DNA of 64,000 nt from Bacteroidota bacterium (GTDB lineage: Bacteria; Bacteroidota; Bacteroidia; Flavobacteriales_D; Crocinitomicaceae), in contig JASBTZ010000003.1 in the NCBI GenBank assembly GCA_030148165.1, positions 620,001-684,000 of the forward strand, given 5' to 3'. The stretch's first letter is position 1. Every line of letters begins with the position of its first letter. Positions 7,504-48,511 of this stretch are shown piece after piece. Both the position numbers and the translations under genes were made by a program. A model generated the notes under the pieces. It had not been told where the DNA came from and ran no database searches. It saw only the letters and a program-made list of their open reading frames with translations.

Positions 7504-8025
7504 GTGAAATATGATCATATTTGTAAGTTAGACCAGACACATTGGATTGTGGAATACACAGATATATTAATCAACATCCGTAAGATCATTCGCTCCATTA
7601 ATTTGGAAAGCAAACGAATTGAGAAAGAACATGGGATTAGCATTCCACAATACCTTTGTCTGAATTTCCTGAACAATTCGGAAGGTTACCGTGCTACTGC
7701 TAAAGAGATCGGATCATATCTCAATTTGAATCCCAGCACTGTGACTGGTATTATTTCAAGATTGGAGAGAAAAGGATTTCTCGCCAAATTGCCTAACAAA
7801 GAAGATAAAAGATCTTCTTTCATCTACCTCACTGCCGTTGGTGAACGTGTGGCGAGTTCAATTCCGGATCTACTCCATGAAAAACTCTCTACTAAGCTGA
7901 AGAGCTTAAGCAAGGATGAACTTGAAAATCTGCAGAATTCACTCAATGTCCTTGTCGAATTTATGGAAGCTGAAAACCTCGATGCTTCTCCTATGATTAC
8001 TCCTGGCGACCACATTATTGATTAG
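7504..8025 (+). CDS. MarR-family transcriptional regulator
   Basis: A 173-residue winged-helix regulator. No in-frame ATG lies near the start; GTG at 7504 (or TTG 7501) is the likely start codon. The central part (YRATAKEIGSYLNLNPSTVTGIISRLERKGFLAKLPNKEDKRSS is the region, residues about 60-105) shows the MarR recognition helix and the wing with the family D-K-R-S pattern. Helices at both ends provide dimerisation. It sits just upstream of an operon whose start carries a perfect palindrome repeated before the cysteine dioxygenase gene, so it is the obvious candidate to bind both. The effector is probably an amino acid or sulfur metabolite; that is inference. Confidence 0.85.
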   Translation: MKYDHICKLDQTHWIVEYTDILINIRKIIRSINLESKRIEKEHGISIPQYLCLNFLNNSEGYRATAKEIGSYLNLNPSTVTGIISRLERKGFLAKLPNKEDKRSSFIYLTAVGERVASSIPDLLHEKLSTKLKSLSKDELENLQNSLNVLVEFMEAENLDASPMITPGDHIID

Positions 8026-8071: not shown

Positions 8072-8103
8072 CTTGACAAATCGGCAGTACTTTAGTAAAT
8101 TTG
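8072..8103 (+). promoter_or_regulatory. Promoter of the 8124-12339 operon
   Basis: CTTG at 8072-8075 and TAAATTTG at 8096-8103 (exact TAnnTTTG) are 20 nt apart, a textbook Bacteroidota arrangement. The predicted start of transcription (about 8110) falls inside the adjoining palindrome. Confidence 0.65.
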
Positions 8104-8117
8104 TTTTCTATAGAAAA
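8104..8117. promoter_or_regulatory. Palindromic operator, copy 1
   Basis: TTTTCTATAGAAAA is a perfect 14-bp palindrome directly downstream of the -7 element and 6 bases before ATG 8124. The 18-nt string TTTTCTATAGAAAATACT (8104-8121) recurs exactly at 15362-15379. A repressor bound here would block initiation; the neighbouring MarR protein is the likely ligand. Confidence 0.65.
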
Positions 8118-8123
8118 TACTTG

Positions 8124-8495
8124 ATGAGTTACCCGAAGGGAGTTATTATAAACAACATTGTGAGTGATATTAAATCCAAGGATTATGAGAAAATCTATGC
8201 GGATATAATAGGATTTAAGACTCCATATGAAATCGGAATAAAAGGTGATGAAGACTCAGGATTCAGGCCGGATATTATTTGTGAAAAGGAAGATGAAATC
8301 AATTTGTTTTCCATTGAAACCAACATCGATAAACGGGTAACAAAAAAAGACATTCGGCGATGGAAGTTGTTTCGAATATTTGCAAAAGCGAATAATGGAA
8401 CTTTGTTCCTGGCTGGCACCAAATACAACTTATCTATCATCGAAAAGACGCTCGACCCCCTACCGCAGAATGTAAAATTTATTCATTTACTGTAA
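8124..8495 (+). CDS. Uncharacterised small protein, first gene of the operon
   Basis: A 123-residue soluble protein. The frame is open from 8073, but that region holds the promoter and operator, so ATG 8124 is chosen. The sequence FRPDIICEKEDEINLFSIETN, with an Asp then a Glu about 14 residues later on a predicted strand, and a following Lys/Arg-rich helix (KKDIRRWKLF), loosely recall a PD-(D/E)XK nuclease-like core with Asn in place of the catalytic Lys. This resemblance is weak. It sits between the MarR gene and a GNAT gene (7-base gap), so it belongs to the amino-acid operon. I do not recognise the family. Confidence 0.65.
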   Translation: MSYPKGVIINNIVSDIKSKDYEKIYADIIGFKTPYEIGIKGDEDSGFRPDIICEKEDEINLFSIETNIDKRVTKKDIRRWKLFRIFAKANNGTLFLAGTKYNLSIIEKTLDPLPQNVKFIHLL

Positions 8496-8502
8496 AAAAT
8501 AC

Positions 8503-8955
8503 ATGCAGAATACAATTAAAGACGCGAGTTACAAGTTGATTAATAAATTCTCGGGAAGCAATGCCCTTATTGAAAACGGTGACATAAAACACTTTTTGTT
8601 TCAACACCTGGAAGAATACGGAGACAACCTTGTTGACATAAGCAAAGCAATCGACTATGTATTTAACAAAGAAGGTGGTTTTATCCTGGTTCAATTCTAT
8701 CAGGATCAGATATCCGGGGTTGTAGTTATTAATGAAACTGGAATGGGTGGATATATCCCTGAAAACATTCTTGTTTATATCGCAGTTGATAGCAAACATC
8801 GTGGAAATGGTCTTGGAAAGGAACTCATGGCCAATGCTATAAAAACGTGTAAAGGCGACATAGCGCTTCACGTAGAACGCGATAATCCTGCTCGATTCTT
8901 ATATGAAAAATTAGGTTTCACGAACCCTTATCTTGAAATGAGATTAAAACGTTAA
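8503..8955 (+). CDS. GNAT-family N-acetyltransferase
   Basis: A 150-residue acetyl-CoA-dependent transferase. Motif A for CoA pyrophosphate binding is visible as AVDSKHRGNGLGKELM, and the C-terminal motif B as ERDNPARFLYEKLGF. Size is normal for single-domain GNATs. The gene ends one base before the M20 amidohydrolase start, so an acetyltransferase and a deacylase are co-expressed, alongside two racemases. A role in N-acetylating an amino acid or dipeptide is plausible by context; the acceptor cannot be read from sequence. Confidence 0.9.
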   Translation: MQNTIKDASYKLINKFSGSNALIENGDIKHFLFQHLEEYGDNLVDISKAIDYVFNKEGGFILVQFYQDQISGVVVINETGMGGYIPENILVYIAVDSKHRGNGLGKELMANAIKTCKGDIALHVERDNPARFLYEKLGFTNPYLEMRLKR

Positions 8956-8956
8956 G

Positions 8957-10093
8957 ATGGAATTAAGTGATTTTATCAATATACGGCATCACCTACATCG
9001 TTACCCGGAGTTGTCGGGACAAGAAAACAACACCTCGAAATTCATACGCGAACTTCTGGAAGAAAAATGTTCCAGAGCCCAAGTCATGACGGTTGCAGAA
9101 ACGGGAGTACTGGTAAAATTTGAAGGGAAGTCTAGTGCTCCGTCTATACTACTGCGTTGTGAACTTGATGCTTTGGCTATTCACGAAACCAATGACTTCA
9201 AATACCAATCTGTTCATGAAAACATCTCTCACAAGTGTGGTCATGATGGACACATGACAATTCTTTTAAGGGTAGCTCATTTATTGCAAAATCAGCCACC
9301 AAAAGGAAACGTTTTTCTCCTCTTTCAACCCGCGGAAGAAAATGGACAAGGAGCCAAAGAAGTACTTGAAGATGATCGATTTCATATAGCATGTCAACCC
9401 GATTATGTTTATGCTTTGCATAATATTCCCGGAAAACCCATGCATTCCATTTCTCTCAAATACAAATTGTTTTCCGGAGCTGTTATAAGCTCTGAAATTA
9501 CATTTCATGGTAAAACAGCTCACGCTGGAGAGCCTGAAAACGGTATCAATCCGAGTTATGCTATCGCTGAAATCTGGCAGGGAAGTCAGGAATTACTGAA
9601 AAAGCTAAATAATGACGATAGCACATATATCATTACACCTATTTACGCCAACATCGGTAGTCGGGACTTTGGTATCGCAGCGGGTCATGGACAAGCAGGG
9701 TTCACGTTAAGAGCTCAAACAAATAAAGGTCTAACCGATTTACAAAATCTATTTCGTGACGCCGTGAAGCGAATTTGTGATCAGCATCAACTTGAATTGA
9801 AAATAAAGTGGATCGAAGAATTCCCTGCGATTGAGAACAACATGGAAGCGACAGACTTCATTCGGAACACGGCGCAAAGTCTCGATTTGGAGCTTATCCC
9901 AATGGACGATGCGTTTTCCTGGGGCGAAGACTTTGGACATTTCACAAAAAAATACAAAGGAGCTATGTTCGGTTTAGGGGCCGGAGTTAATTGTCCTGCG
10001 CTACATAATTCCAATTATGATTTTCCGGATGAACTAATCAAAACAGGAAGTGATTTTTTTCTGAAACTAATTGAAAAAACACAGCATGACTGA
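8957..10093 (+). CDS. M20-family amidohydrolase (N-acyl amino acid hydrolase type)
   Basis: A 378-residue metallohydrolase. Family features in order: RHHLHRYPELSGQE near the N-terminus, the metal-binding SHKCGHDGHM (residues about 91-100), PAEENGQGAKEVLED (about 125-139, with the general-base Glu), the dimerisation-domain HGKTAHAGEPENG (about 185), and a C-terminal WGEDFGHF and ALHN metal ligand region. This is the amidohydrolase branch (aminoacylase, N-acetyldiaminopimelate and IAA-amino-acid hydrolases). Its stop is embedded in the next start (ATGACTGA), so translation is coupled to alanine racemase. The likely reaction is release of an amino acid from an N-acyl derivative. Confidence 0.88.
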   Translation: MELSDFINIRHHLHRYPELSGQENNTSKFIRELLEEKCSRAQVMTVAETGVLVKFEGKSSAPSILLRCELDALAIHETNDFKYQSVHENISHKCGHDGHMTILLRVAHLLQNQPPKGNVFLLFQPAEENGQGAKEVLEDDRFHIACQPDYVYALHNIPGKPMHSISLKYKLFSGAVISSEITFHGKTAHAGEPENGINPSYAIAEIWQGSQELLKKLNNDDSTYIITPIYANIGSRDFGIAAGHGQAGFTLRAQTNKGLTDLQNLFRDAVKRICDQHQLELKIKWIEEFPAIENNMEATDFIRNTAQSLDLELIPMDDAFSWGEDFGHFTKKYKGAMFGLGAGVNCPALHNSNYDFPDELIKTGSDFFLKLIEKTQHD

Positions 10094-11237
10094 GACATCT
10101 GTCATTGAGTTAAGTAAAAAGGCGCTCAAGACCAATTTAAAATTCATTCGCAATATCATTGGACCAAATGCAGAGTTCGTTTCGGTCGTCAAAGGGAATG
10201 CTTATGGTCACGGCATCAATACGTTTGGATCGCTGGCATTCAACTGTGGAGTTAGAAGTTTTGCAGTATTCAGCGCCAACGAAGCAAAAAAACTTCTTAG
10301 CTCAAACATTGAACCGGATCGAATTATGATCATGGGCTACATAAGCGATGAAGACATCGCTTGGGTAATCGAAAACGACGTTGATTTCTTTGTCTTTGAA
10401 CTTGAAAGATTATCGAAAGCAATTGATGTAGCGAAAGCCCTGAATAAAAAAGTTCACATACATGTTGAGATCGAAACTGGAATGGGACGTACAGGTTTCC
10501 AAAAAAATCAGTGGAAGGAATTAGTAGGCCTGATCAAAAAAGAAAGAAAGGATGTCGTAGTCGAAGGAATTTGCACACATCTGGCTGGAGCCGAAGACAT
10601 TTCTAATTATTTGCGTATTCGCAATCAGATTCAGGTATTTAACGATGCCCGAAAGTTTTTTGACAAACATAATATTCGATACAAGAAAACGCATGCCGCA
10701 TGTTCAGCAGCCATCATTAATTATCCTAAGACAATTTTTAATCTCGTTCGGGTTGGAATCATGCAATATGGCTTCTGGCCCAGCAAAGAAGTTAAAATGG
10801 CTTACTTCACCAAGAGCAATGAACACACGGACCCATTGAAAAGAGTGATCTCCTGGAAAACGGAGATAATGGATGTTGTGGACATTAAAGCAGGACAATA
10901 CATTGGCTATGGCCGTTCTTATCTTGCTGAGTCGGACATGAAAGTGGCAATTGTTCCTGTTGGCTATGCACATGGTTATAGCCGCGTGCTAAGTAACCTT
11001 GGCAAAGCAATTATTAACGGGGTCCGTGTCTCGACCGTAGGAACCGTAAACATGAACATGGCATCTTTTGACGTAACAAACGTTCCACAGGTTACCGCCG
11101 GCGATAGTGTAACACTTATTGGTGAACAAAACGGTGTCGAGATCAGTGTGTCTTCCTTTAGTGATCTGAGCGATCAGCTCAATTATGAACTACTTACCCG
11201 ATTACCCGCAAGTATTCCACGATCCATTTTAAAATAA
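10086..11237 (+). CDS. alr: Alanine racemase
   Basis: A 383-residue fold-type III PLP enzyme. ATG 10086 is preferred over 10071 because it gives the ATGACTGA coupling to the previous gene and the usual Alr start. The PLP lysine is Lys36 in VVKGNAYGHG; the second catalytic residue, Tyr, is in GYGRSY (about residue 274); the family motif MGRTGF is also present. The enzyme interconverts L- and D-alanine for peptidoglycan, but its position in an inducible-looking operon with an amidohydrolase and a second racemase suggests a catabolic or specialised copy (DadX-like use) rather than the housekeeping one. Whether a second alr exists cannot be seen here. Confidence 0.9.
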   Translation: MTETSVIELSKKALKTNLKFIRNIIGPNAEFVSVVKGNAYGHGINTFGSLAFNCGVRSFAVFSANEAKKLLSSNIEPDRIMIMGYISDEDIAWVIENDVDFFVFELERLSKAIDVAKALNKKVHIHVEIETGMGRTGFQKNQWKELVGLIKKERKDVVVEGICTHLAGAEDISNYLRIRNQIQVFNDARKFFDKHNIRYKKTHAACSAAIINYPKTIFNLVRVGIMQYGFWPSKEVKMAYFTKSNEHTDPLKRVISWKTEIMDVVDIKAGQYIGYGRSYLAESDMKVAIVPVGYAHGYSRVLSNLGKAIINGVRVSTVGTVNMNMASFDVTNVPQVTAGDSVTLIGEQNGVEISVSSFSDLSDQLNYELLTRLPASIPRSILK

Positions 11238-11238
11238 C

Positions 11239-12339
11239 ATGGCAGAATTAATCATACATACAGAAAAAATTAAAGAGAATATCAAGTGGTTAAGTAACTA
11301 TTTTGAATCAAAGAATATTCACTGGAGCCTTATCACAAAAGTGTTTTCAGGTGATAAGGAATTCTTGAAACATGTTCTGACTGAAGATGTGATTAAGAAG
11401 ATCAATACCGTTGGGGATTCCAGACTAACAAGTCTTAAAAATCTTCGCGAAGTCAATCCTGACATGAAAACGATCTACATTAAACCCCCTGCAGCTATCT
11501 ATGCAGAGGATGTCGTTAAATATGCAGACACCTCACTCAATACCTCATTCGAAACGATAGAAGCACTTGATAAAGCGGCAAAAAAAGCAGGTGTTAAGCA
11601 CAAGGTGATTATCATGGTAGAACTTGGCGAGCTAAGGGAAGGTGTTCAGCGTGAAGATCTGATTAGCTTTTACCAGAAGGTATTTAACCTGAATAACATA
11701 GATGTTATTGGCATCGGATCCAACCTGGGCTGTATGTATGGAGTTGAACCTTCTTACGATAAATTACTTCAACTATACCTCTATCGCGAGTTAATCGCCG
11801 AAAAGTTCGATCACAATTTGCCGCTTCTATCCGGGGGAACATCTATTACCCTTCCTATGATCGAGGACGATCGCATACCGAAACAGATCAATCACTTCAG
11901 AGTTGGTGAAGCTGCTTTCTTTGGAAAGAGTCCTTTGGATGATAAGCAATTCAAAGAACTTCACACAGACACTTTTGAATTCAATGCAAACATCATTGAA
12001 TTAGAAGTTAAAAATCTGCTGCCTGAAGGTATTATTAGTGATGCCAACGTGGGACACACTACAAACCATGCCGATTCGGTTGGAGCATCTGAAAAATCAC
12101 ACAAAGCCATTTTGGATTTCGGCTTGTTGGATGTCAACACGGAGGACATTACTTGTAAAGACCGGAACATAACACTGGTAGGTGTCACGTCTGATATGAC
12201 GGTTGTTGATTTAGGTAAAAATGAGGAGAAGAATAAAGAGACTCATTATAGAGTTGGCGACACCATTACTTTCACGCTAAACTACATGGCCGTAGCCAGA
12301 CTTCTAAATTCTAAATTCATCGACAAGAAGTTTGTCTAG
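11239..12339 (+). CDS. Alanine/ornithine racemase-family PLP enzyme
   Basis: A 366-residue fold-type III PLP protein distinct from Alr. Lys34 in WSLITKVF is the expected Schiff-base lysine. EMVELGELREGV-type sequence (here MVELGELREGV), LSGGTSITLP and HFRVGEAAFFG are the signature of the ornithine racemase/YhfX group. Ornithine racemase from clostridia is the best known member; broad amino-acid racemases also occur. It starts one base after the alr stop. Its own stop overlaps that of the convergent symporter (CTAG gives TAG on both strands). Substrate could be ornithine, lysine, arginine or another amino acid. Confidence 0.85.
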   Translation: MAELIIHTEKIKENIKWLSNYFESKNIHWSLITKVFSGDKEFLKHVLTEDVIKKINTVGDSRLTSLKNLREVNPDMKTIYIKPPAAIYAEDVVKYADTSLNTSFETIEALDKAAKKAGVKHKVIIMVELGELREGVQREDLISFYQKVFNLNNIDVIGIGSNLGCMYGVEPSYDKLLQLYLYRELIAEKFDHNLPLLSGGTSITLPMIEDDRIPKQINHFRVGEAAFFGKSPLDDKQFKELHTDTFEFNANIIELEVKNLLPEGIISDANVGHTTNHADSVGASEKSHKAILDFGLLDVNTEDITCKDRNITLVGVTSDMTVVDLGKNEEKNKETHYRVGDTITFTLNYMAVARLLNSKFIDKKFV

Positions 12340-13826
12340 GCAAGTTCCTTTTTAGGAAACATCTTTGAGAAGACCCAGGCCATAATCATGGAAATCAGAA
12401 ACGATGGTCCTAATACATCTAGCTGTACAAAGTATGGCCCAATCACATCCAATTTAGCGATTACAAATTTGAAGATCGGAACACAAACAAAGCCGCTGAT
12501 CATTGCCGCGATAGCACCTGTTTCGGATAAACCTTTCCAAAAGAGCGTCAATATAATTACAGGGCAGAAAGAGGCAGCTATACCCGACCAACCGAATATC
12601 ACCATCCAGAAGACGGTACGATCAGGAGATAATTGAGCAGCTAACATCGCTATACCCAATGCCAGTAAAGCCATCGCGAATGTCACCCAACGCGATAAAG
12701 TCGTTAAATCCTGATCCTTGATGTCGGGTCTGAAAATCTTTTGGTAAAAGTCTCGTGTAATTGCACTGGAAGCAATAACCAACAAACTATCGATCGTGGA
12801 CATAATAGCAGATAGAACGATCGCTACATAGATTGCCACCAATAGATATGGCAAGAAGTTCTCCGTTAGCATACCTAAGACATGCTCTGCGCCGGTTCCC
12901 AGGATAGCCTCCGGATCCTGACCGGACTGCGTGAATATGATTCTTCCTAAAATACCTATCGTAACAGCAGCTGCATCCGTCATTAGAGTGAAAACGATAG
13001 CCACCCACCTACCCTTGTCTATTTCTTGCTCATCTTTAATCGACATGAAGCGCACGTATACCTGAGGTGACCCAAGAAAGCCAAGTCCGATTAATGCAAA
13101 CCCCAACATAGTGGCAATGTTCATCCACATATCATCACTCGTCCCCCACACATTTGTGAGCGCGGGATCAACCGCATTCAAACCCTCTACAATTCCGGTA
13201 GATCCATCCATGGAGAACCAAACCACAATCGGCAAGAGAACAAGCCCTGCGAACATTAAAAGTCCCTGGAACAGATCTGACCAGACAGCAGCTACGAATC
13301 CACCAATAAATATATAAGTCAATACAATAACAAAACCGAGTATCGCTCCCGAGAAGTAACCCATACCCATCATGGACTCAAAGGCTTTACCGGTGACGTC
13401 TATTTGAGAGCTCACATAGATCACTACAAATATCGAAAGGATTGACGCGGCAAGTATTCGTAAGGTTTTCTTCGTGCTCTTAAAGTGACTTTCCAGATAA
13501 TCAGGAACCGTTATCGCCCCGTATTTGTCAGATCGACGTTTAAAGCGTTTCGCCATAAACCACCAGGAAATTCCAACACCCAAGACTTCACCCAAAACGA
13601 CCCAATAAGCAGAAAGTCCTGACAATGCCCCCATTCCGGTAAGACCGATCAACAACCAGCCTGATTCACCGGTAGCACGCGCAGAAAAGGCTACTGCCCA
13701 ATATCCGATTTTCTTACCCCCAACGTAGAAATCGCTCATGCTTTTCACCCGACGAGAAGCGACTATTCCAATAAGGAATAATATCGAAACATAAATCCCA
13801 AGGACGATAAACTTGGTTAAATCCAT
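12336..13826 (-). CDS. Sodium:solute symporter, PutP-like
   Basis: A 496-residue transporter with about 13 membrane helices. FYVGGKKIGYW, SARATGESGWLLIGLTGMGA and SDLFQGLLMF resemble the sodium/proline symporter branch of the SSS family, including the sodium-site serine region. It lies one base downstream of the decarboxylase stop, so the two form an operon and the transporter probably handles a substrate or product of that enzyme (amino acid, hypotaurine, taurine or similar). That link is inference. The 3' end overlaps the convergent racemase gene by four bases. Confidence 0.88.
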   Translation of the reverse strand: MDLTKFIVLGIYVSILFLIGIVASRRVKSMSDFYVGGKKIGYWAVAFSARATGESGWLLIGLTGMGALSGLSAYWVVLGEVLGVGISWWFMAKRFKRRSDKYGAITVPDYLESHFKSTKKTLRILAASILSIFVVIYVSSQIDVTGKAFESMMGMGYFSGAILGFVIVLTYIFIGGFVAAVWSDLFQGLLMFAGLVLLPIVVWFSMDGSTGIVEGLNAVDPALTNVWGTSDDMWMNIATMLGFALIGLGFLGSPQVYVRFMSIKDEQEIDKGRWVAIVFTLMTDAAAVTIGILGRIIFTQSGQDPEAILGTGAEHVLGMLTENFLPYLLVAIYVAIVLSAIMSTIDSLLVIASSAITRDFYQKIFRPDIKDQDLTTLSRWVTFAMALLALGIAMLAAQLSPDRTVFWMVIFGWSGIAASFCPVIILTLFWKGLSETGAIAAMISGFVCVPIFKFVIAKLDVIGPYFVQLDVLGPSFLISMIMAWVFSKMFPKKELA

Positions 13827-13827
13827 T

Positions 13828-15219
13828 TTATGCGTTCAGCTCTTTATGAGTCTCCAATAATTCCGGGTAATCTGCTACAAAAGCCTCTAGTTTTTGGAAA
13901 AAGTTGATGATATCCTCCTTGTCGTTCTGTGCGTTAATTGTAACGAGTCGAACGAATTCTTCACCGTTAAAAGAACCATAACCAACCAGTAATTCAGATT
14001 CCTCGTACAGTGCTGTACATAAGGTGCGAGTAGGGATGCCTTTATAATTAAAACAAACGGAGATCGAATCATCAAAGCTGTAAAGCGTATAGTCATCACT
14101 TGCCCGAACATATCGTCTTGCAATATCTGCCAGGTAGAATTGATGATCCACAATTTTCTCCAGCCCCTTTGTCCCTACACTTTTCCATAAAGTCCAGAAT
14201 TTCAATGCATCATTTCTTCGCCCACATTGAAGCGAAGTTTTACCCAGGTTGAAATCGTCATGAGCAGTTTGGTACAGATAGTTTGCGTCGTTCGAAAATG
14301 AATCATGTAAGTACTTCTTATCCTTGACAACAATTACTGAACACGACAATGGCGTTCCAATCATTTTGTGTGCGTTGAAGCTAAAGGAATCTACTAATTC
14401 GATGCCTGCAATCAAGCGCTTATATTGTTGACTGAACAGCACCGAGCCGCAATAGGCTCCGTCTACATGTAACCACATTTTAAAGCGGTCTGTAATAATC
14501 CTTGCTTGTGCGATTGGATCGAAAGCGCCCAGGACGGTTGTTCCAGCTGTTAAATTCAACAAGACGGGATTGTAGCTATTTTGAACATCATCATCCAACA
14601 TGTTTTCCAATGCTGCAAGATTGATCTTGCCGTAGTTATCTGTGGGAACATAGCGGACATTATCTCTACCGATGCCTGAAAATGCAGCATTCTTGGGAAT
14701 ACTATAGTGAGAGTCGGCCGAAGTATAAATGGTCATTCTACTTGACGCTCCTTTAAAACGATAGTTCGGATCTTTTGCGTCACGCGCCATAAGCATAGAC
14801 ATAAGATTGGTCATCGAACCACCCGGCGCGAGTGTCCCATCGGCCTTCTCTCCCCAACCGATCAGGTTACACACTTCTCGCAGTATCGACTTCTCTACAC
14901 CCACCTGTGGTCCAGCCGCCTTGTATGTATACATGCTATTGTTAAGGACAACCGCAAGAAGATCTCCGAGAATTGCTTTTTCATTTCTTCCACCGAACAA
15001 CTGATTAAAAAATGCATTTGTCGCGGTTCGCGGTGTTGTCATAACCAGTTCGCGAAGTACCGATTCAAATTCTTCCTCACTGATCGGATCCCTTTTTAAT
15101 CGGAGATCGAGTCGTTCAAACAATTCATCTTCTGGTACATATTCTGCAACCGGATTCCGCTCTTCATCCTCTAAAAGGTCCTTCACTATTTGCTCGAATA
15201 ACTTTAATGTATTTTGCAT
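13828..15219 (-). CDS. Group II PLP decarboxylase, cysteine sulfinate decarboxylase-like
   Basis: A 463-residue enzyme resembling animal GAD/CSAD rather than bacterial GadB. Landmarks: FFNQLFGG (71-77), APGGSMTNL, TSADSHYSI (His171 stacks on PLP), LTAGTTVLGAFDP, HVDGAYCGS (Asp253), FNAHKMIGTPL (Lys285 binds PLP) and LQCGRRNDALKFW. In the two-residue position reported to separate substrate use, animal CSAD has Phe and Ser 20 residues apart while GAD has others; here Phe75 and Ser95 match CSAD, as recalled from the mammalian sequences. With the divergent cysteine dioxygenase this gives cysteine to cysteine sulfinate to hypotaurine. Aspartate or glutamate decarboxylation remains possible. Confidence 0.82.
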   Translation of the reverse strand: MQNTLKLFEQIVKDLLEDEERNPVAEYVPEDELFERLDLRLKRDPISEEEFESVLRELVMTTPRTATNAFFNQLFGGRNEKAILGDLLAVVLNNSMYTYKAAGPQVGVEKSILREVCNLIGWGEKADGTLAPGGSMTNLMSMLMARDAKDPNYRFKGASSRMTIYTSADSHYSIPKNAAFSGIGRDNVRYVPTDNYGKINLAALENMLDDDVQNSYNPVLLNLTAGTTVLGAFDPIAQARIITDRFKMWLHVDGAYCGSVLFSQQYKRLIAGIELVDSFSFNAHKMIGTPLSCSVIVVKDKKYLHDSFSNDANYLYQTAHDDFNLGKTSLQCGRRNDALKFWTLWKSVGTKGLEKIVDHQFYLADIARRYVRASDDYTLYSFDDSISVCFNYKGIPTRTLCTALYEESELLVGYGSFNGEEFVRLVTINAQNDKEDIINFFQKLEAFVADYPELLETHKELNA

Positions 15220-15359
15220 ACAAACTTTTTTCTAACGTTCTCTTTTTATTAAATAATTAATCGTAAATCCTGTTAATTGGATCATTTTTGAAGTATAATC
15301 ACTAAAAAATGTGTATTTTTAGATAGTTCCCAATTATTAGCATTAAAGATACTATTAAT

Positions 15360-15377
15360 TATTTTCTATAGAAAATA
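15360..15377. promoter_or_regulatory. Palindromic operator, copy 2
   Basis: TATTTTCTATAGAAAATA is a perfect 18-bp palindrome 17 bases before the cysteine dioxygenase ATG. The string from 15362 to 15379 is identical to 8104-8121. It lies in the 175-bp divergent region shared with the decarboxylase gene; no strong -7 box is visible for the plus strand, so activation rather than repression is possible here. Confidence 0.65.
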
Positions 15378-15394
15378 CTATAATATTTCAAAGT

Positions 15395-15931
15395 ATGAAT
15401 ATTACCAGTCTTGAACAATTAATTAAGGAATTTGACGATGCTGAACCCTCCAAACGGGTTTCCATACTTAAGAGAATAGACATCCCTATAGCGTCTTTTG
15501 AAGACTTCTCATCCTGGGAACAGGATGATTATACTCGAAACTGTATTTACCGAAATGACGACTTCGAACTCATACTCTTATGCTGGGATGTCGATACCAA
15601 AACTCCTATTCATGGCCATGCGGGACAAGATTGCTGGGTCTATCAGGTTAGCGGCGAGGTAAAGGAATTGCGTTACGATAAGTCAATCAACGGATCTCTT
15701 CGTGTCACCAACAATATGAAATTTAAAGAAGGAATGCTGGCGTACATGCACGATCGAATGGGCTTCCATTCAATTGAAAACATCGGATCTTCACGGGCAA
15801 TGACTCTTCACATCTACGCCTCCCCTATTGACCGATGCCGCATTTACGAGCCGGAAAAAGGATTGTTTGTTATGAAAGAACTAGAATACGATACCATTGA
15901 AGGTAATGCGATAAAGCACACCGGATCATGA
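15395..15931 (+). CDS. Cysteine dioxygenase (type I, cupin)
   Basis: A 178-residue cupin. The iron ligands are His73, His75 (TPIHGHAGQDCW) and His125 (GFHSIEN). Cys80, seven residues after His73, and Tyr141 (HIYASP), sixteen after His125, fall where the mammalian Cys93-Tyr157 crosslink sits. The Arg of YRN (53) matches the substrate-carboxylate Arg60. So the residues needed to oxidise L-cysteine to cysteine sulfinate with O2 are in place. It is divergent from the CSAD-like decarboxylase and carries the shared palindrome just upstream. Length is normal for bacterial CDO. 3-mercaptopropionate dioxygenase is less likely because of the retained Cys and Arg. Confidence 0.88.
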   Translation: MNITSLEQLIKEFDDAEPSKRVSILKRIDIPIASFEDFSSWEQDDYTRNCIYRNDDFELILLCWDVDTKTPIHGHAGQDCWVYQVSGEVKELRYDKSINGSLRVTNNMKFKEGMLAYMHDRMGFHSIENIGSSRAMTLHIYASPIDRCRIYEPEKGLFVMKELEYDTIEGNAIKHTGS

Positions 15932-17547: not shown

Positions 17548-18231
17548 ATGCAGGGATTACAATCTAAAATAGCAATTAAAATCAACCCGAATGTTTACAA
17601 GAAGGACCCACTTTCAAGTAAACTAGGAGAGAAGATTTTACGTCAGGGAATTGACATGATCGATGAAGTGGGATTTGAAAGTTTCACGTTCAAGAAACTC
17701 GCATCACGTATCAAATCGACCGAAGCATCTATCTATCGCTATTTTGAAAATAAGCACAATCTATTGGCGTATCTCTCCATGTGGTACTGGAGTTGGACCG
17801 AGTACAAAGTGATGCTCAATACATTGAATATTGAATCGCCCGAAACCCGTCTTCTTCGTGCAATTAAATGTGTCACAGAAGAGGTGGTCGAGGATGAATC
17901 AGTATCTCAAATCAATGAAAGCAAACTTCACCAAATAGTAATTACTGAATCTTCTAAGGTATATCTCTGTAAAGCTGTTGACGAGAATAATAAAGCGGGG
18001 TTTTACCTGGTTTATAAGTCGCTGGTTCAGCGAATTGCAGATATCATTCTTGAAATTCGTCCCAACTTCAAGTATCCGCATATGCTGGTATCAACTGTCA
18101 TTGAAGGTGCTCATCATCAGCGTTTCTTCGCAGATCATCTTCCGCGTTTGACCGATGTAATCGAAGGAGAAGATGCAGTTACCATGTTTTACACACAGTT
18201 AATTGAAAGAGAATTAAAAATTGAAAAATAG
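17548..18231 (+). CDS. TetR-family regulator
   Basis: A 227-residue protein. Residues about 25-75 form the TetR helix-turn-helix (GIDMIDEVGFESFTFKKL, then STEASIYRYFENKHNLLAYL), with the typical YRYFENK recognition segment. The C-terminal helical domain, which would bind the effector and dimerise, has a His-rich GAHHQRFFADHL near the end. It is the first gene of an export operon and its own promoter carries two palindromes, so it probably represses itself and the transporter until a ligand binds. The next gene overlaps it by 11 bases. Confidence 0.88.
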   Translation: MQGLQSKIAIKINPNVYKKDPLSSKLGEKILRQGIDMIDEVGFESFTFKKLASRIKSTEASIYRYFENKHNLLAYLSMWYWSWTEYKVMLNTLNIESPETRLLRAIKCVTEEVVEDESVSQINESKLHQIVITESSKVYLCKAVDENNKAGFYLVYKSLVQRIADIILEIRPNFKYPHMLVSTVIEGAHHQRFFADHLPRLTDVIEGEDAVTMFYTQLIERELKIEK

Positions 18232-39772: not shown

Positions 39773-39846
39773 GGCCTCGTAGCTCAACTGAATAGAGCAC
39801 TTGATTACGGCTCAAGAGGTTTCAGGTTTGAATCCTGACGAGGTCA
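39773..39846 (+). tRNA. tRNA-Arg (anticodon ACG)
   Basis: A 74-nt cloverleaf without an encoded CCA. Acceptor GGCCTCG pairs with CGAGGTC (one G-U); the D arm is GCTC/GAGC; the anticodon stem CTTGA/TCAAG encloses the loop TTACGGC, giving ACG; the T stem TCAGG/CCTGA encloses TTTGAAT; the discriminator is A. The D loop has GA instead of the usual GG and the T loop has T instead of C, so the near-universal G19-C56 tertiary pair appears as A19-U56. ACG is normally edited to ICG and reads CGU/CGC/CGA. Its 3' end is copied downstream (see repeat). Confidence 0.93.
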
Positions 39847-39980
39847 CAAGTGAAAATGGCTTCCCTTTCGGGAGGCCATTTTTGCTTTTTGAAGTCGGCA
39901 TATGGATGAAAATCTTGTTTGAAACGAAGGCTTGCCGAAGTTCGCCGACCGAAGTGGAGGCAATCATGACGAGGTCACAA
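39836..39980 (+). repeat. Duplicated tRNA 3' end (att-like direct repeat)
   Basis: TGACGAGGTCACAA at 39836-39849 (tRNA T-stem, acceptor and 3 flanking bases) recurs at 39967-39980. Extending left, 39831-39849 and 39962-39980 match at 18 of 19 positions. The period is 131 nt. Such copies of a tRNA 3' end mark integration sites of mobile elements, or the relic of a tandem tRNA. No integrase gene is present in the window. Confidence 0.6.
39853..39884 (+). terminator. Intrinsic terminator after tRNA-Arg
   Basis: AATGGCTTCCC-TTTC-GGGAGGCCATT followed by TTTG, starting 7-8 bases after the tRNA end. Confidence 0.8.
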
Positions 39981-39986
39981 AGTATA

Positions 39987-40024
39987 AAGCCAACTCTTTG
40001 ATATATAAAGGGTTGGCTTTTTTC
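39987..40024 (+). terminator. Second terminator, after the duplicated tRNA end
   Basis: AAGCCAACTCTTT (39987-39999), loop GATATAT, AAAGGGTTGGCTT (40007-40019), then T-rich. It isolates the tRNA transcript from the downstream cassette. Confidence 0.75.
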
Positions 40025-40161
40025 TTTCCCCATATATTCCCCATACTTTAATAGTATATCCAATCTCCTTTAAGTCTTAATGCTCGAATACATCACAATT
40101 AAAGGTTTTTTACATGTATAAATTGTATATTAATTCGCGGTATAAGGAAGTGAGACACAAT

Positions 40162-40190
40162 CATTACACTTATCAGACCATTACACTTAT
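40162..40190. promoter_or_regulatory. Direct-repeat operator candidate before the TIR gene
   Basis: CATTACACTTAT occurs at 40162-40173 and 40179-40190, a 17-nt period, ending 16 bases before ATG 40207. In addition GTATAAG (40140-40146) and CTTATAC (40186-40192) are inverted repeats bracketing the pair. No good TAnnTTTG box is visible, so the cassette may use a different promoter or a phage-type regulator. Confidence 0.4.
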
Positions 40191-40206
40191 ACGTTAACAT
40201 TAAACT

Positions 40207-41070
40207 ATGACCCCTATTCAGATATTTAAAAATGGAATAGCTAAGGCAAAAATAAAAGACTACGAGGGAGCATTATTAGACTTTAATATCGTTATTCAAC
40301 TTGATCCTGAGGGTAATGCGAATTATTACAACAATAAAGGCTCAGCACTTAGTTATCTCGGTAGAAAAAAAGAAGCAATGGCTGAATTTGATAAAGCTAT
40401 TCAACTTGATCCTAATAACTCTCATTTCTACTTTAACAGAGCCGAAAACCTCGCATATTTTTGCAACTATAAAAGAGCAATAGCAGACTATAAAAAATGT
40501 CTTTCTATATCTCCAAATGATCATGAAGCGAGGTATCAAATGAAGCTGGCTGAATTTTACAGGGATTTAGAGAGAAATAACACACAAAACAAAGAACCTA
40601 TAGAGAAAAAGATCAAATTGTTCATTTCTTATTCTCATAAAGATGAAGAATTGAAAGAACAGTTCGATAATCATCTTAGTACACTTAAAAGAATGGGGTT
40701 TATTGAAGTATGGAATGATCGTGAGATCACTGCATCGGATGAATGGGAACAAGAAATAGATGAAAATTTGAATGATGCTGATATAATAGCCTGTCTAATA
40801 AGCTCTGATTTCATAAGTTCCGATTATTGTTTTTCAAAAGAAATGGAACTTGCGATTGAAAAGCACGATAATCATGAGGCTAAAGTACTTCCAATTATTG
40901 TCAGACCTGTAGTCTGGAATATTTTACCAATAGGTGAAATTCAAGCTTTACCTAAAGATGGAAAAGCAGTTACTTCTTGGTCTAATATAGATGAAGCATT
41001 TCAAAATATCACAGAAGGAATTTTAAAGCTTATCAATGAAATAAAAAATGACCTTAGTAGAGAAATATAA
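40207..41070 (+). CDS. TPR-TIR protein (putative NADase effector)
   Basis: A 287-residue two-part protein. Residues 3-105 are three tetratricopeptide repeats (ALLDFNIVIQLDP, KKEAMAEFDKAIQLDP, YKRAIADYKKCLSISP), likely a protein-binding platform. Residues about 136-275 are a TIR domain: KLFISYSHKDEELK (box 1), the FIEVWNDREI region, ADIIACLISSDFISSDYCFSKEME, with Glu212 at the expected catalytic position. Bacterial TIR domains of this kind cleave NAD+ or make cyclic ADP-ribose signals in phage defence. There is no signal peptide, so it is cytoplasmic. Its end overlaps the next gene by 23 bases. NADase activity is predicted, not shown. Confidence 0.85.
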   Translation: MTPIQIFKNGIAKAKIKDYEGALLDFNIVIQLDPEGNANYYNNKGSALSYLGRKKEAMAEFDKAIQLDPNNSHFYFNRAENLAYFCNYKRAIADYKKCLSISPNDHEARYQMKLAEFYRDLERNNTQNKEPIEKKIKLFISYSHKDEELKEQFDNHLSTLKRMGFIEVWNDREITASDEWEQEIDENLNDADIIACLISSDFISSDYCFSKEMELAIEKHDNHEAKVLPIIVRPVVWNILPIGEIQALPKDGKAVTSWSNIDEAFQNITEGILKLINEIKNDLSREI

Positions 41071-42034
41071 AGATGAGTTGAAGCTTTACCAAGAGTTTGG
41101 AGAAAGCCTTCTGGTTGACCTCTCAAGCAAAGTGGTTAATAATGAAAGGCTTAATGTCCAGCAAATTTCAGGAAGGCTAAAAGACCCAACTAGTTTGCAG
41201 AACAAGGTTTCATCCGACTCTAAGTATAAAGAACTTTCTGATGTCACAGACCTAGTTGGCTTGAGAATTATTGTAACATACAGAAATGAAATTCCATTTA
41301 TAATATCACAAATTAAGGATGCGTTTGAAATTGACGAAGAAAACACGAATACGAATGATCCTAAATCTGAATCTGAATTTGGTTATTCTTCATATCATGT
41401 TATAATTAGTAATGCAAAAGTTGAGTCTTTCAAATCTCATAATTTAAAGTTTAAGAATTTAAAAGCAGAGGTGCAAATTAGAACAATATTGCAGCACGCA
41501 TGGGCAGATATTTCGCATATGATTGACTACAAAGCCAAACACCGACCTGAATCAAATCATAGAAGAAAGCTTTTCAGGGTTGCTGCATTACTGGAGTTGG
41601 CAGATCAAGAATTTGGCGATTTAAGAGAGGAGATCGTCAAAAGTCAAAAAGATCTCATACCTCGAGACATAACTCAATATCCTGATATTGAAATAACCCC
41701 TGAATCATTACAGGCTTTTGTAATGGAATCAGATTCGTGCAACGCATTGGATCAAAGAATTGCTAACATTACGGACAGCACCCTCCATTTTAACGATGAG
41801 TCAATTATTGGAAAAAACCTAATGCAAATAAGAAAATTGGAAATTTCTACACTAAAGGAACTTGATGAAAAAATGCGAGATAAATCTGATGACATCGTTC
41901 AAGCATTTGAAGATCAAAACAAAACATGGATAGAATTTCGAGATGCCTTTCCCGAATCACACGGTAACTCAACAGTCCCTAGAGGGGTCGCAATAACTTA
42001 TCTTTATTTTCTTATCAAGCGTCAATTTGACTAA
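41048..42034 (+). CDS. RelA/SpoT-domain nucleotide pyrophosphokinase-like protein
   Basis: A 328-residue protein with a RelA/SpoT synthetase domain at about 20-165 and a helical C-terminus with no HD hydrolase, TGS or ACT domain. Motifs: SGRLKDPTSL (Arg43, Lys45 for ATP), DVTDLVGLRIIV (Asp68 for metal), FGYSSYHVII, and EVQIRTILQHAWADISH (Glu141, Arg145, His150). All residues expected for pyrophosphate transfer seem to be present. It resembles small alarmone synthetases and toxSAS-type toxins, and so could make (p)ppGpp, ppApp or modify tRNA ends. It is translationally coupled to the TIR gene by a 23-base overlap, which suggests a joint system. Confidence 0.85.
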   Translation: MTLVEKYKDELKLYQEFGESLLVDLSSKVVNNERLNVQQISGRLKDPTSLQNKVSSDSKYKELSDVTDLVGLRIIVTYRNEIPFIISQIKDAFEIDEENTNTNDPKSESEFGYSSYHVIISNAKVESFKSHNLKFKNLKAEVQIRTILQHAWADISHMIDYKAKHRPESNHRRKLFRVAALLELADQEFGDLREEIVKSQKDLIPRDITQYPDIEITPESLQAFVMESDSCNALDQRIANITDSTLHFNDESIIGKNLMQIRKLEISTLKELDEKMRDKSDDIVQAFEDQNKTWIEFRDAFPESHGNSTVPRGVAITYLYFLIKRQFD

Positions 42035-42070
42035 CCAATATGTTACTAAAATCAACTACAAAAGATAAAA

Positions 42071-43411
42071 ATGGATAAAATTGAGTTCCTAAGTGATGAG
42101 GCTATAAGATCAAGAGAGCTTGACAAGTTTAACAGGAATAACTTTGTTGAATCTGTGGCCAATATAATATATTCCCAATCCACTGCTGTAAACGCTGATG
42201 GCGATTCAGACTACAAGAATGTAGAGGAAAATTTGGTAATAGGAATCTTCGGAGAATGGGGATTGGGTAAATCTAGCATCCTCAATCTTTTGAACGAAGT
42301 TTTAATTGACAAAGGCTTAAGAACTATATATTTTAATCCTTGGATGTATAATAATGAAGAGCAGTTGGTGGCTTCTCTTTTTAATAATATCATCAAAAAC
42401 GTAGACCTTGAAGATTCAATAAAAGATAACCTGATCAATTTTTTTAAAAAGTATTTACCCTTAGTGTCAATAGCTTTTCCAGGGGCAAGCCAAGTTGGGA
42501 ATGCAATTATCAATTCAGTTGAGGCAGATGAAGATACAATAGATGCTTTTTATTGTAAATCCAAGATTGATGAAATTTTATCCGGGACAGCCAACCCACT
42601 AATCATTTTTATTGATGATGTAGATCGGTTAAGTAAAGATGAAATTCACGTCTTGTTCAAAACACTAAGACTTATTGCAAGTTTTAGACATGTTATTTAC
42701 GTTGTGGCTTGTGATTTTGAAATGGTTGCTAAATCAATCAAAGAGAACTATGTTGATGGTGATATAGAGGATGGAAGAGCTTTCATTGAGAAAATAATTC
42801 AAATACCGATAAGAATCCCTGAACTTAAATCAGATCAACTTTTGAGTTATGGAGTCGACCTAATATCAAAAACATCTAGTATTGATATGTCTACAAGCAA
42901 TCTATTCAAAGTTTTATTTGAAAGGTATTTCTACACACCAAGAGATGTAAAAAGATTTGTCAATGGCTTAAGATTCACACATAGTTATTTGAAAGGAGTT
43001 ATACCTGATGAAGAATTAATAATTCTAGAACTAATACGAGTTAAGGTTCATAGTTTGTATCATATTATTAAAATATATTATAGAGCAATTGGCGCTATTG
43101 ATACAGATACATATTATTCCACTGAATTCATACATTATGTTACTAAGCATCGTAAAGACTTTTTCAATTCAGAAGGCCATTTAGATCATCGGAATAAAGA
43201 ATTTAAAATCTATACGGATGTCTTCAAAGCTTTATTCAAGACGAACGATATTGTGACATTGAAATTTACTTCAACAAAAAACCCTATAAATAAGAGTAGC
43301 GGTTATAAACAAATCATGCAAGAAGGGTATCGTATTAGAAATAATGACTTAAGCAATCCGGAAAAACTTGTAGAATATTTCGAAAAATTACCCGAGACAC
43401 CGGAACACTAA
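42071..43411 (+). CDS. KAP-family P-loop NTPase
   Basis: A 446-residue protein. Walker A is GEWGLGKSS (61-69), preceded by the family phrase VIGIFGEWG; the KAP-typical FNPWMYNNEEQL follows at about 88-99; Walker B is LIIFIDDVDRL (177-187, Asp182/Asp183); a sensor-like FYTPRDVKRFVNGL lies near 290-305. A weakly hydrophobic stretch (about 128-150, LPLVSIAFPGASQVGNAI) stands where many KAP proteins carry membrane helices. KAP NTPases include the phage-exclusion protein PifA. It lies 36 bases after the RelA/SpoT gene and completes the cassette, perhaps as sensor or regulator. Base composition is visibly AT-rich (19 G/C in 42121-42180). Confidence 0.85.
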   Translation: MDKIEFLSDEAIRSRELDKFNRNNFVESVANIIYSQSTAVNADGDSDYKNVEENLVIGIFGEWGLGKSSILNLLNEVLIDKGLRTIYFNPWMYNNEEQLVASLFNNIIKNVDLEDSIKDNLINFFKKYLPLVSIAFPGASQVGNAIINSVEADEDTIDAFYCKSKIDEILSGTANPLIIFIDDVDRLSKDEIHVLFKTLRLIASFRHVIYVVACDFEMVAKSIKENYVDGDIEDGRAFIEKIIQIPIRIPELKSDQLLSYGVDLISKTSSIDMSTSNLFKVLFERYFYTPRDVKRFVNGLRFTHSYLKGVIPDEELIILELIRVKVHSLYHIIKIYYRAIGAIDTDTYYSTEFIHYVTKHRKDFFNSEGHLDHRNKEFKIYTDVFKALFKTNDIVTLKFTSTKNPINKSSGYKQIMQEGYRIRNNDLSNPEKLVEYFEKLPETPEH

Positions 43412-47022: not shown

Positions 47023-48465
47023 TTAGTCTTCAATTTTCATGATACGCTCTCTTGTTCCATCACTGTATATAAAGATCAGTGGCGTATTCGGTTTGAAATT
47101 GGTTTCTCTTCCGGCAAAATCCACAATTTTTACGAGCTTTTTTTCTGTGTTGATAAGCTCATCTAATCCGATAGTAGTCACCGAATAACAAAGACTCGTG
47201 TCTACACATCCGCCGGGAGAGGTGACTACAACAGCGTAATCTCCGTTACTGGTCGGCGTATAGGACTGTGAGTTCGCTCCGCCGATCGCAATGTTGTTGT
47301 TATTGCAATCGATCCACTGATAAGTCCCAGTGGGATCTCCAACCGTTAAGGTTATTCCGCTAATTGTCATGGAAACATCCGGTTCGGGAAGAATGGTTAG
47401 ATCTAAAGTTACGACTGAATCGCATCCATTGGCTGCACCGCCGGTGATCGTATAAACAACCATGGTATCTGTTGAATACGTATTATTATCAATCCATGTA
47501 TAACTGCCACAAGCACTTTGTACCTCTGTACCTGTTGCAGAAGGAAGAATATTTAATTCTAAAGTCACAACTGAATCGCATCCATTGGATGCACCTCCTG
47601 TGATCGTATAAACAACCATGGTATCTGTCGAATACGTATTATTATCAATCCATGTATAACTGCCACAAGCGCTTTGTACATCAGTGCCTGTTGATCCAGA
47701 ATTGACTGTCAAATCCAAGGTGACAATAGAATCGCACCCGAATACTGAAGTCAGGGTTTCTGTATAAACCCCGGTACTGTTGTAGGTATTCGAACCAATC
47801 GTAATTGAATACGGAGCGCACTCAACGATTGTTGTGTCAAACGTAGTTGCTGTAATCAATTCGAAAACATAATTGTCGCCTTCAATTGTCCAGGGACCCG
47901 TTTGCGATGGAGCACTCATTCCATTGCTACCGTATGTTGGAAGGTTTGTGAACTCCCAATAGTGGTTGTTGTTCGAAATAGCTTGAACTGAAAACCAGAA
48001 AGTTGTTCCGCTCGCACCTCCGCACAGGTTTACAGGCGTGGCTAGAGCAAAAGCGTATTCATAAACATTCAGGCCCCAATTATTTCCCAACAAGGTCAAC
48101 GTGCAATTTCCGAAGGGGATAACCTCCGAGGCTATTACTGTTCCTGGAGTTCCCGCGTTGTCGCTGTAAAAGAACACCTGAATATTATCCGCAGGGTTGT
48201 TTACAAAGAAATTCACAGTTATATCGCCGACATCCCAGCATTCTGAAGCAGGGACTACAAAGTTCTCAGCACATACGAGTGGCCAACCGGTTTGACTGAT
48301 ACGTCCATCCTCAAATGCATTATTTTCTTGAAGGTATCCACAAGAAGTGTAAGTTTTTAGATTCGAAACTGTCCCTGTCTTAGAGACAGAATTTGGGTTT
48401 AGATTCGTTTGGGCATTCAGGCCACCTATAGCAGCGAGAATTGCAATTAGTAGTAGTTTTCGCAT
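47023..48465 (-). CDS. Secreted protein with tandem Cys-repeats and variant C-terminal module
   Basis: A 480-residue protein when started at ATG 48465 (signal peptide MRKLLLIAILAAIGGLNAQ). Residues about 60-210 form a jelly-roll-like domain with paired Cys and Trp-rich strands. Then three related Cys-containing repeats occur, two nearly identical 52-residue units (ACGSYTWIDNNTYSTDT, GCDSVVTL), a type widespread in Bacteroidota surface proteins. An Ig-like segment (CNNNNIAIGGANSQSYTP) follows. The end has the variant module (VDFAGRETNF, PNTPLIFIYSDGT, RERIMKIED) instead of a type A sorting domain. Exported; ligand unknown. Confidence 0.8.
   Translation of the reverse strand: MRKLLLIAILAAIGGLNAQTNLNPNSVSKTGTVSNLKTYTSCGYLQENNAFEDGRISQTGWPLVCAENFVVPASECWDVGDITVNFFVNNPADNIQVFFYSDNAGTPGTVIASEVIPFGNCTLTLLGNNWGLNVYEYAFALATPVNLCGGASGTTFWFSVQAISNNNHYWEFTNLPTYGSNGMSAPSQTGPWTIEGDNYVFELITATTFDTTIVECAPYSITIGSNTYNSTGVYTETLTSVFGCDSIVTLDLTVNSGSTGTDVQSACGSYTWIDNNTYSTDTMVVYTITGGASNGCDSVVTLELNILPSATGTEVQSACGSYTWIDNNTYSTDTMVVYTITGGAANGCDSVVTLDLTILPEPDVSMTISGITLTVGDPTGTYQWIDCNNNNIAIGGANSQSYTPTSNGDYAVVVTSPGGCVDTSLCYSVTTIGLDELINTEKKLVKIVDFAGRETNFKPNTPLIFIYSDGTRERIMKIED
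47377..47688 (-). repeat. 156-bp tandem duplication inside the coding sequence
   Basis: Bases 47533-47688 and 47377-47532 are consecutive 156-bp units encoding 52 residues each, with only a few substitutions between them. The preservation points to recent duplication or gene conversion. Confidence 0.8.
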
Positions 48466-48511
48466 TTGCAGTATTTTAATTAGTTGCATCTAAATTACGA
48501 AAAGTTCTAAT

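Follow-up and report, generated by a model that had tools for sequence, protein, structure and literature searches.

Among the closest described systems is that of PA3458 of Pseudomonas aeruginosa, a MarR repressor of the operon PA3459-PA3461 for the osmolyte NAGGN (PMC8070244). As far as the available part of that account goes, it resembles the locus analysed here in that the MarR gene adjoins an operon coding for a GNAT acetyltransferase and a peptidase-type hydrolase, and in that a potential operator for repression lies 11 bp downstream of the -10 element, a geometry similar to the one we propose below. On the same partial account, and with the two operons likened by description alone, PA3459-PA3461 includes an asparagine synthase and, as described, no racemase, whereas racemases are present here; furthermore, PA3458 has more than 300 ChIP-seq binding sites, in contrast to the two exact sites found in the present case. 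MarR proteins that sense sulfane sulfur via a cysteine are likewise known (PMC11211675, as far as its available part goes). We treat the PA3458 and sulfane-sulfur parallels as leads. The third comparison is with the animal taurine pathway, which combines cysteine dioxygenase (CDO) with CSAD or GADL1: the same two enzyme families are encoded here, by genes that are adjacent in 23 of 24 genomes with a close CDO. The system differs from that of animals in being bacterial, in having a symporter gene alongside and in its predicted placement under a MarR, with the substrate of the decarboxylase also being predicted.

In the window, by which we mean the whole 64-kb stretch of DNA analysed, both units lie side by side with the MarR gene (Table 1). 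The racemase operon (8124-12339) is downstream of box 1; the decarboxylase and symporter genes, on which the sequence-only reading was silent, form a minus-strand pair (12336-15219) divergent from CDO, and box 2 sits between CDO and the decarboxylase gene.

Table 1. Features of the two units and their predicted control elements, in window coordinates
Feature	Coordinates	Strand	Evidence or assignment
MarR-family regulator	7549..8025	+	Pfam MarR E 2.4e-14; probable GTG start at 7549, by homology
Promoter TTG-N20-TAAATTTG, Bacteroidota-type	8073..8103	+	sequence and pattern count
Box 1 TTTTCTATAGAAAA	8104..8117		predicted MarR operator over predicted transcription start
123-aa protein	8124..8495	+	no Pfam/NCBIfam match at E 0.001
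GNAT acetyltransferase	8503..8955	+	Pfam Acetyltransf_1 E 1.8e-12
M20 amidohydrolase	8957..10093	+	TIGR01891 217.4 bits, cut-off 153.75
Alanine racemase family protein	10086..11237	+	TIGR00492 293.3 bits, cut-off 168
Ala_racemase_N protein	11239..12339	+	nearest ornithine racemase Orr; 274.7 bits, under cut-off 480
Sodium:solute symporter	12336..13826	-	PutP-like; 337.6 bits, under PutP cut-off 515.5
PLP-dependent decarboxylase	13828..15219	-	nearest solved relatives GADL1 and CSAD
Box 2 TATTTTCTATAGAAAATA, core 15362-15375	15360..15377		predicted MarR operator ahead of CDO
Cysteine dioxygenase (CDO)	15395..15931	+	Pfam CDO_I E 1.1e-19; aligned to mammalian CDO

Elsewhere in the window, at 39773-43411, a low-GC stretch comes after a tRNA-Arg gene. 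It codes for a TPR-TIR protein (PADLOC ThsB-like), a protein with a RelA/SpoT domain and a KAP NTPase (PADLOC PifA-like), and looks like a small defence island. A 156-base tandem repeat in about two copies (47387-47736) lies inside the ORF 47023-48489.

A search of the window recovered two exact copies of the 18-mer TTTTCTATAGAAAATACT, both on the plus strand, at 8104-8121 and 15362-15379; the sequence-only reading had placed the two copies here and none elsewhere in the window, and the search bears it out. With up to three mismatches allowed there are four matches, which correspond to the same two places counted once per strand; shuffling the sequence 100 times and searching in the same way gave a mean of 0.20 and a largest value of 3, so that no shuffle reached the real count. 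That reading had further called the 18-mer a palindromic box lying 17 bases before CDO. The 18-mer itself is not palindromic; the part of the claim that stands is a 14-nt palindrome inside it, TTTTCTATAGAAAA, in copy 2 alone the symmetry is perfect over 18 nt, giving TATTTTCTATAGAAAATA, and the actual gap between the 18-mer and the ATG of CDO (15395) is 15 nt. A genome-wide scan for the palindrome, as the earlier reading had proposed, was run over the assembly (3,506,720 bases in 18 contigs, 98.84% complete) and found TTTTCTATAGAAAA exactly at two places, box 1 and box 2, both at promoters and 7 kb apart. One mismatch adds two places, both within long ORFs, and the backwards control of TTTTCTATAGAAAA has none in the assembly at up to one mismatch. 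The looser pattern TTTCTNNAGAAA shows no genome-wide enrichment (16 places versus 19 in the backwards control); the 15 of these 16 that were inspected comprise the two boxes and 13 others, 11 of them inside mechanical ORFs, and box 1 scores as lying in a coding sequence solely through the TTG-extended ORF 8073-8495. Two intergenic places, L052 and L053, were considered as further operators and rejected, both being without the RY centre.

The MarR gene adjoining the first copy, correctly pointed out in the sequence-only reading, ends 78 nt ahead of box 1. Its product has a MarR winged-helix domain (Pfam MarR, 53.4 bits versus a cut-off of 24.6), and its predicted fold (mean pLDDT 85.2) has MarR-family proteins as top Foldseek matches, with a TM of about 0.6. 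It scores well under the OhrR equivalog cut-off (NF052638, 39.2 bits versus 200), and its scores with the other NCBIfam equivalog models are far under their cut-offs. The closest relatives of the gene on public contigs come from metagenome-assembled genomes labelled Flavobacteriales, Crocinitomicaceae, Flavobacteriaceae, Bacteroidetes and Fluviicola. All 11 close-group sequences aligned, that of the window among them, have Cys36; at this position the distant homologues L026-L029 carry Ser or Ala, and the distant L036, which lies beside neither unit, carries Cys. A predicted MarR fold with an invariant Cys36 recalls the cysteine-based sensors OhrR, MgrA and MexR. An operator ahead of the regulator's own gene is common among MarR regulators but not universal: TTCGTGCAGAAA precedes the MarR gene in G042 and G004, and the stretch upstream of it in the window has no box match of at least 10/14. 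Separately, a perfect palindrome, AAATATGATCATATTT, lies ahead of the window's MarR gene at 7507-7522 and was not seen in the corresponding stretches of the relatives.

We searched 150 genomes of the family for MarR (E 1e-15), CDO (1e-12), the decarboxylase (1e-60) and the Orr-like racemase (1e-30), and obtained matches in 10, 25, 31 and 21, respectively; among 399 genomes of the order, the MarR, distant relatives included, occurs in 15 (E 1e-30). Of 16 distinct MarR loci, 11 have at least 52% identity and five are distant; L019/L038, L020/L030, L021/L031 and L022/L033 are the same contigs, and each pair is counted once. Five of the 11 close loci adjoin the symporter-decarboxylase-CDO unit (L038, L030, L031, whose contig stops within the decarboxylase, L032, whose symporter is a remnant, and L034), and four adjoin the acetyltransferase-amidohydrolase-racemase unit (L023, L024, L025 and L035). 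The remaining close loci include L033, which is beside neither unit, and L037, a short chimera in which the first 72 MarR residues run in-frame into the C-terminal part of CDO (L037:3499-3948), either by deletion or through assembly. The distant homologues L026-L029 and L036 (44-50% identity) were weighed as regulon members and, being beside neither unit, are treated as paralogues, as are the MarR proteins of G177, G300 and G234, the contig of the last being that of L036.

The box keeps company with the regulator across these genomes. A match of at least 10/12 to the window's TTTCTATAGAAA precedes CDO in 7/8 genomes with this MarR versus 1/17 without it (Fisher p 1.3e-4; 6/7 and p 3.5e-4 when the window is left out), p-values that ignore relatedness among genomes that are kin; random Markov-1 upstreams reach 10/12 in 256 of 10,000 cases. 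The box comparison drops G071, in which the gene is close to a contig end, and G042's three CDO-like genes (30-31% identity), takes G011, with a distant MarR only, as MarR-negative, and adds G332 and L034 from outside the 150-genome sample; CDO starts are approximate in 16 of the 17 MarR-negative genes, which gives a slightly longer stretch, and manual gene starts were used for G042, G033 and G048. The CDO box is present in G038 and G147, where CDO is on a different contig from the MarR gene; within one genus, G332 has both MarR and box and G136 neither; and the CDO box of L034 scores just 9/12. On the racemase side, the same threshold is reached in 3/5 MarR-positive versus 1/16 MarR-negative genomes (p 0.028, likewise ignoring kinship), the latter being 16 of the 17 with an Orr match, with G071 (30% identity) left out. 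The other two MarR-positive racemase promoters, those of G038 and L035 with scores of 9 and 8, have the variants TTTCTGTACGAA and TTCGTGCAGAAA, which keep the register, and G038, which has both units, scores 11/12 ahead of CDO along with its 9/12 variant ahead of the racemase unit. In G213 a gene separates MarR from the acetyltransferase; the box is ahead of that gene, and none was seen ahead of the acetyltransferase itself. When 20 chosen genomes were scanned for TTTG plus the box with one mismatch, 12 had counts that did not exceed those of the backwards control, and only the three exact matches are used: TTTGTTTCTRYAGAAA occurs once each in G004 and G042, at the racemase operon, and once in G086, which is without this MarR. 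In G042 and G004 the small-protein gene itself contains TTTTCTGTAGAAAA and TTTTCTATAGAAAA, which encode FSVEN and FSIEN; we left these out of the operator count. That the palindrome, with one mismatch or none, recurs at these pentapeptides (L024:11513-11526 and L025:6843-6856) is either a coincidence or the mark of a second site. Taken together, a palindromic site at the target promoters is conserved with the regulator, more weakly so on the racemase side.

These patterns bear on whether the box might belong to another regulator, for instance the TetR encoded at 17548-18231 or a global factor, with the MarR a bystander. The TetR gene being 1.6 kb past CDO would suit this, as would the partial boxes in two genomes where the MarR was not detected, G083 (TTTTGATAGAAA, 10/12) and G099 (9/12). 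However, we consider it unlikely, given that the box tracks the MarR across genomes and that the MarR is the neighbour common to both units; the two exact sites in the assembly speak in addition against a global factor.

The geometry of the promoter bears on the direction of control. A TTG (8073-8075), 20 nt and TAAATTTG (8096-8103) directly abut box 1, so that the exact promoter which had been read upstream of the first copy is right in sequence; we take this arrangement to be a Bacteroidota promoter form with a Bacteroidota-type -7 element. The pattern TTG-N17-22-TAnnTTTG occurs six times in the window, both strands together. When 16 boxes were compared, TAnnTTTG was found touching the box in six, comprising all five racemase-unit promoters (the window, G038, G042, G004 and L035) and one promoter in G213, with a gap to the 12-mer of 0 in the racemase-unit promoters except for 1 in the window; the box pattern used in this comparison was loosened after viewing the relatives, with the G038, L035 and G213 variants accepted post hoc. 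Since TAnnTTTG is found only 20 times per strand in 64 kb, the shared register is hardly due to chance. TAnnTTTG touching the box would place the predicted transcription start inside it, which fits a repressor. The exact element is absent against all eight CDO boxes and both MarR-gene boxes (G042 and G004); thus, the repressor geometry rests on six of the 16 boxes. If the box were instead an activator site, at which the MarR aids the polymerase, blocking would not have to be evident at the CDO and MarR-gene boxes, and MarR proteins can indeed activate (PMC6036246, from the part of it available); nevertheless, the position of the box directly downstream of TAnnTTTG and over the predicted start in 5/5 racemase-unit promoters and in G213 makes activation quite improbable. 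A chance pair of AT-rich palindromes, to which the lack of excess of TTTCTNNAGAAA over its backwards control might point, is very hard to reconcile with the shuffles, the siting of both exact copies at promoters 7 kb apart, the conservation of the box in relatives and the register shared by six promoters.

In an alignment with the mammalian Arg-type CDO, the columns of the metal His, the substrate Arg and the Cys-Tyr pair are all kept, presumably with the same roles. By alignment score, the decarboxylase is nearer to CSAD and GADL1 than to GAD among solved structures, by a small margin (6enz 253.8, 2jis 245.6 and 6zek 239.7 bits; best GAD 226.5). The adjacency of the two genes holds in all but one (G091) of the family genomes with a close CDO, divergently in 12 and in tandem in 11, a count that leaves out the distant CDO-like genes of G042; seven of the 31 decarboxylase genomes, all of one genus, are without a CDO at E 1e-12. 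Because the decarboxylase adjoins CDO and resembles CSAD/GADL1, the CDO side most likely makes hypotaurine from cysteine. The "sulfur amino-acid oxidation" of the sequence-only reading is accordingly right as to CDO and narrows to CDO with a CSAD/GADL1-like decarboxylase. In-match stop codons, one each in the decarboxylases of G120, G126 and G018 and the CDOs of G107 and G099, may be normal stops with alignment overrun, sequence errors or decay.

In the racemase operon, the 123-aa protein aligns with same-place proteins of three relatives at 20-29% identity, the best solved relative of the M20 amidohydrolase is Bacillus subtilis YxeP (1ysj, E 9.2e-39), and a search for solved relatives of the Orr-like racemase gave none at E 0.001. 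Genes for the acetyltransferase and this racemase accompany each other in the 16 MarR-negative genomes fetched, with the M20 amidohydrolase and alanine racemase alongside in two (G011 and G002). G104, G133 and G112 belong to a single genus and lack this MarR; in them an MscS-like channel gene and a sodium symporter come after the acetyltransferase-racemase pair (family profiles for G104 only), the arrangement expected of an osmolyte function, and an osmolyte role of the racemase side is possible. It is a tentative and rather doubtful extension that the MarR runs an organic-osmolyte programme sensed through Cys36, in which CDO and the decarboxylase would supply hypotaurine or taurine from cysteine, the acetyltransferase, deacylase and racemases would supply D-amino or N-acetylated amino acids, and a sodium-coupled symporter would act beside them.

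Our preferred reading, to which we give a probability of about three in four, is that the MarR represses the CDO unit and the racemase operon via the shared box as a two-site local regulon; it is drawn from the same MarR adjoining one or the other unit and from the box preceding CDO mostly where the MarR is present. In the resting state a MarR dimer would bind TTTCTRYAGAAA, whose operator variants in relatives are TTTCTRYACGAA and TTCGTGCAGAAA. Placed on or close to the transcription start, it would obstruct RNA polymerase both at CDO and at the racemase operon, and perhaps at the divergent decarboxylase-symporter pair, whose genes are possible further targets. The MarR would be released by an effector, which may be a sulfur compound or an amino acid; CDO would convert cysteine to cysteine sulfinate, with decarboxylation yielding hypotaurine. 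Comparison with relatives thus favours the small regulon that the sequence-only reading had predicted, in which the adjoining MarR governs both CDO and the racemase operon, and no regulon of this sort was found among the matches listed from the open-licence PMC literature. These comparisons give good support to a small regulon that is new and of a known type. For a lineage that is here mostly metagenome-assembled, it provides a regulator together with two exact predicted operators and a target set of two units. It also raises the possibility that these bacteria make hypotaurine by an animal-type route, which would be tied to D-amino-acid genes.
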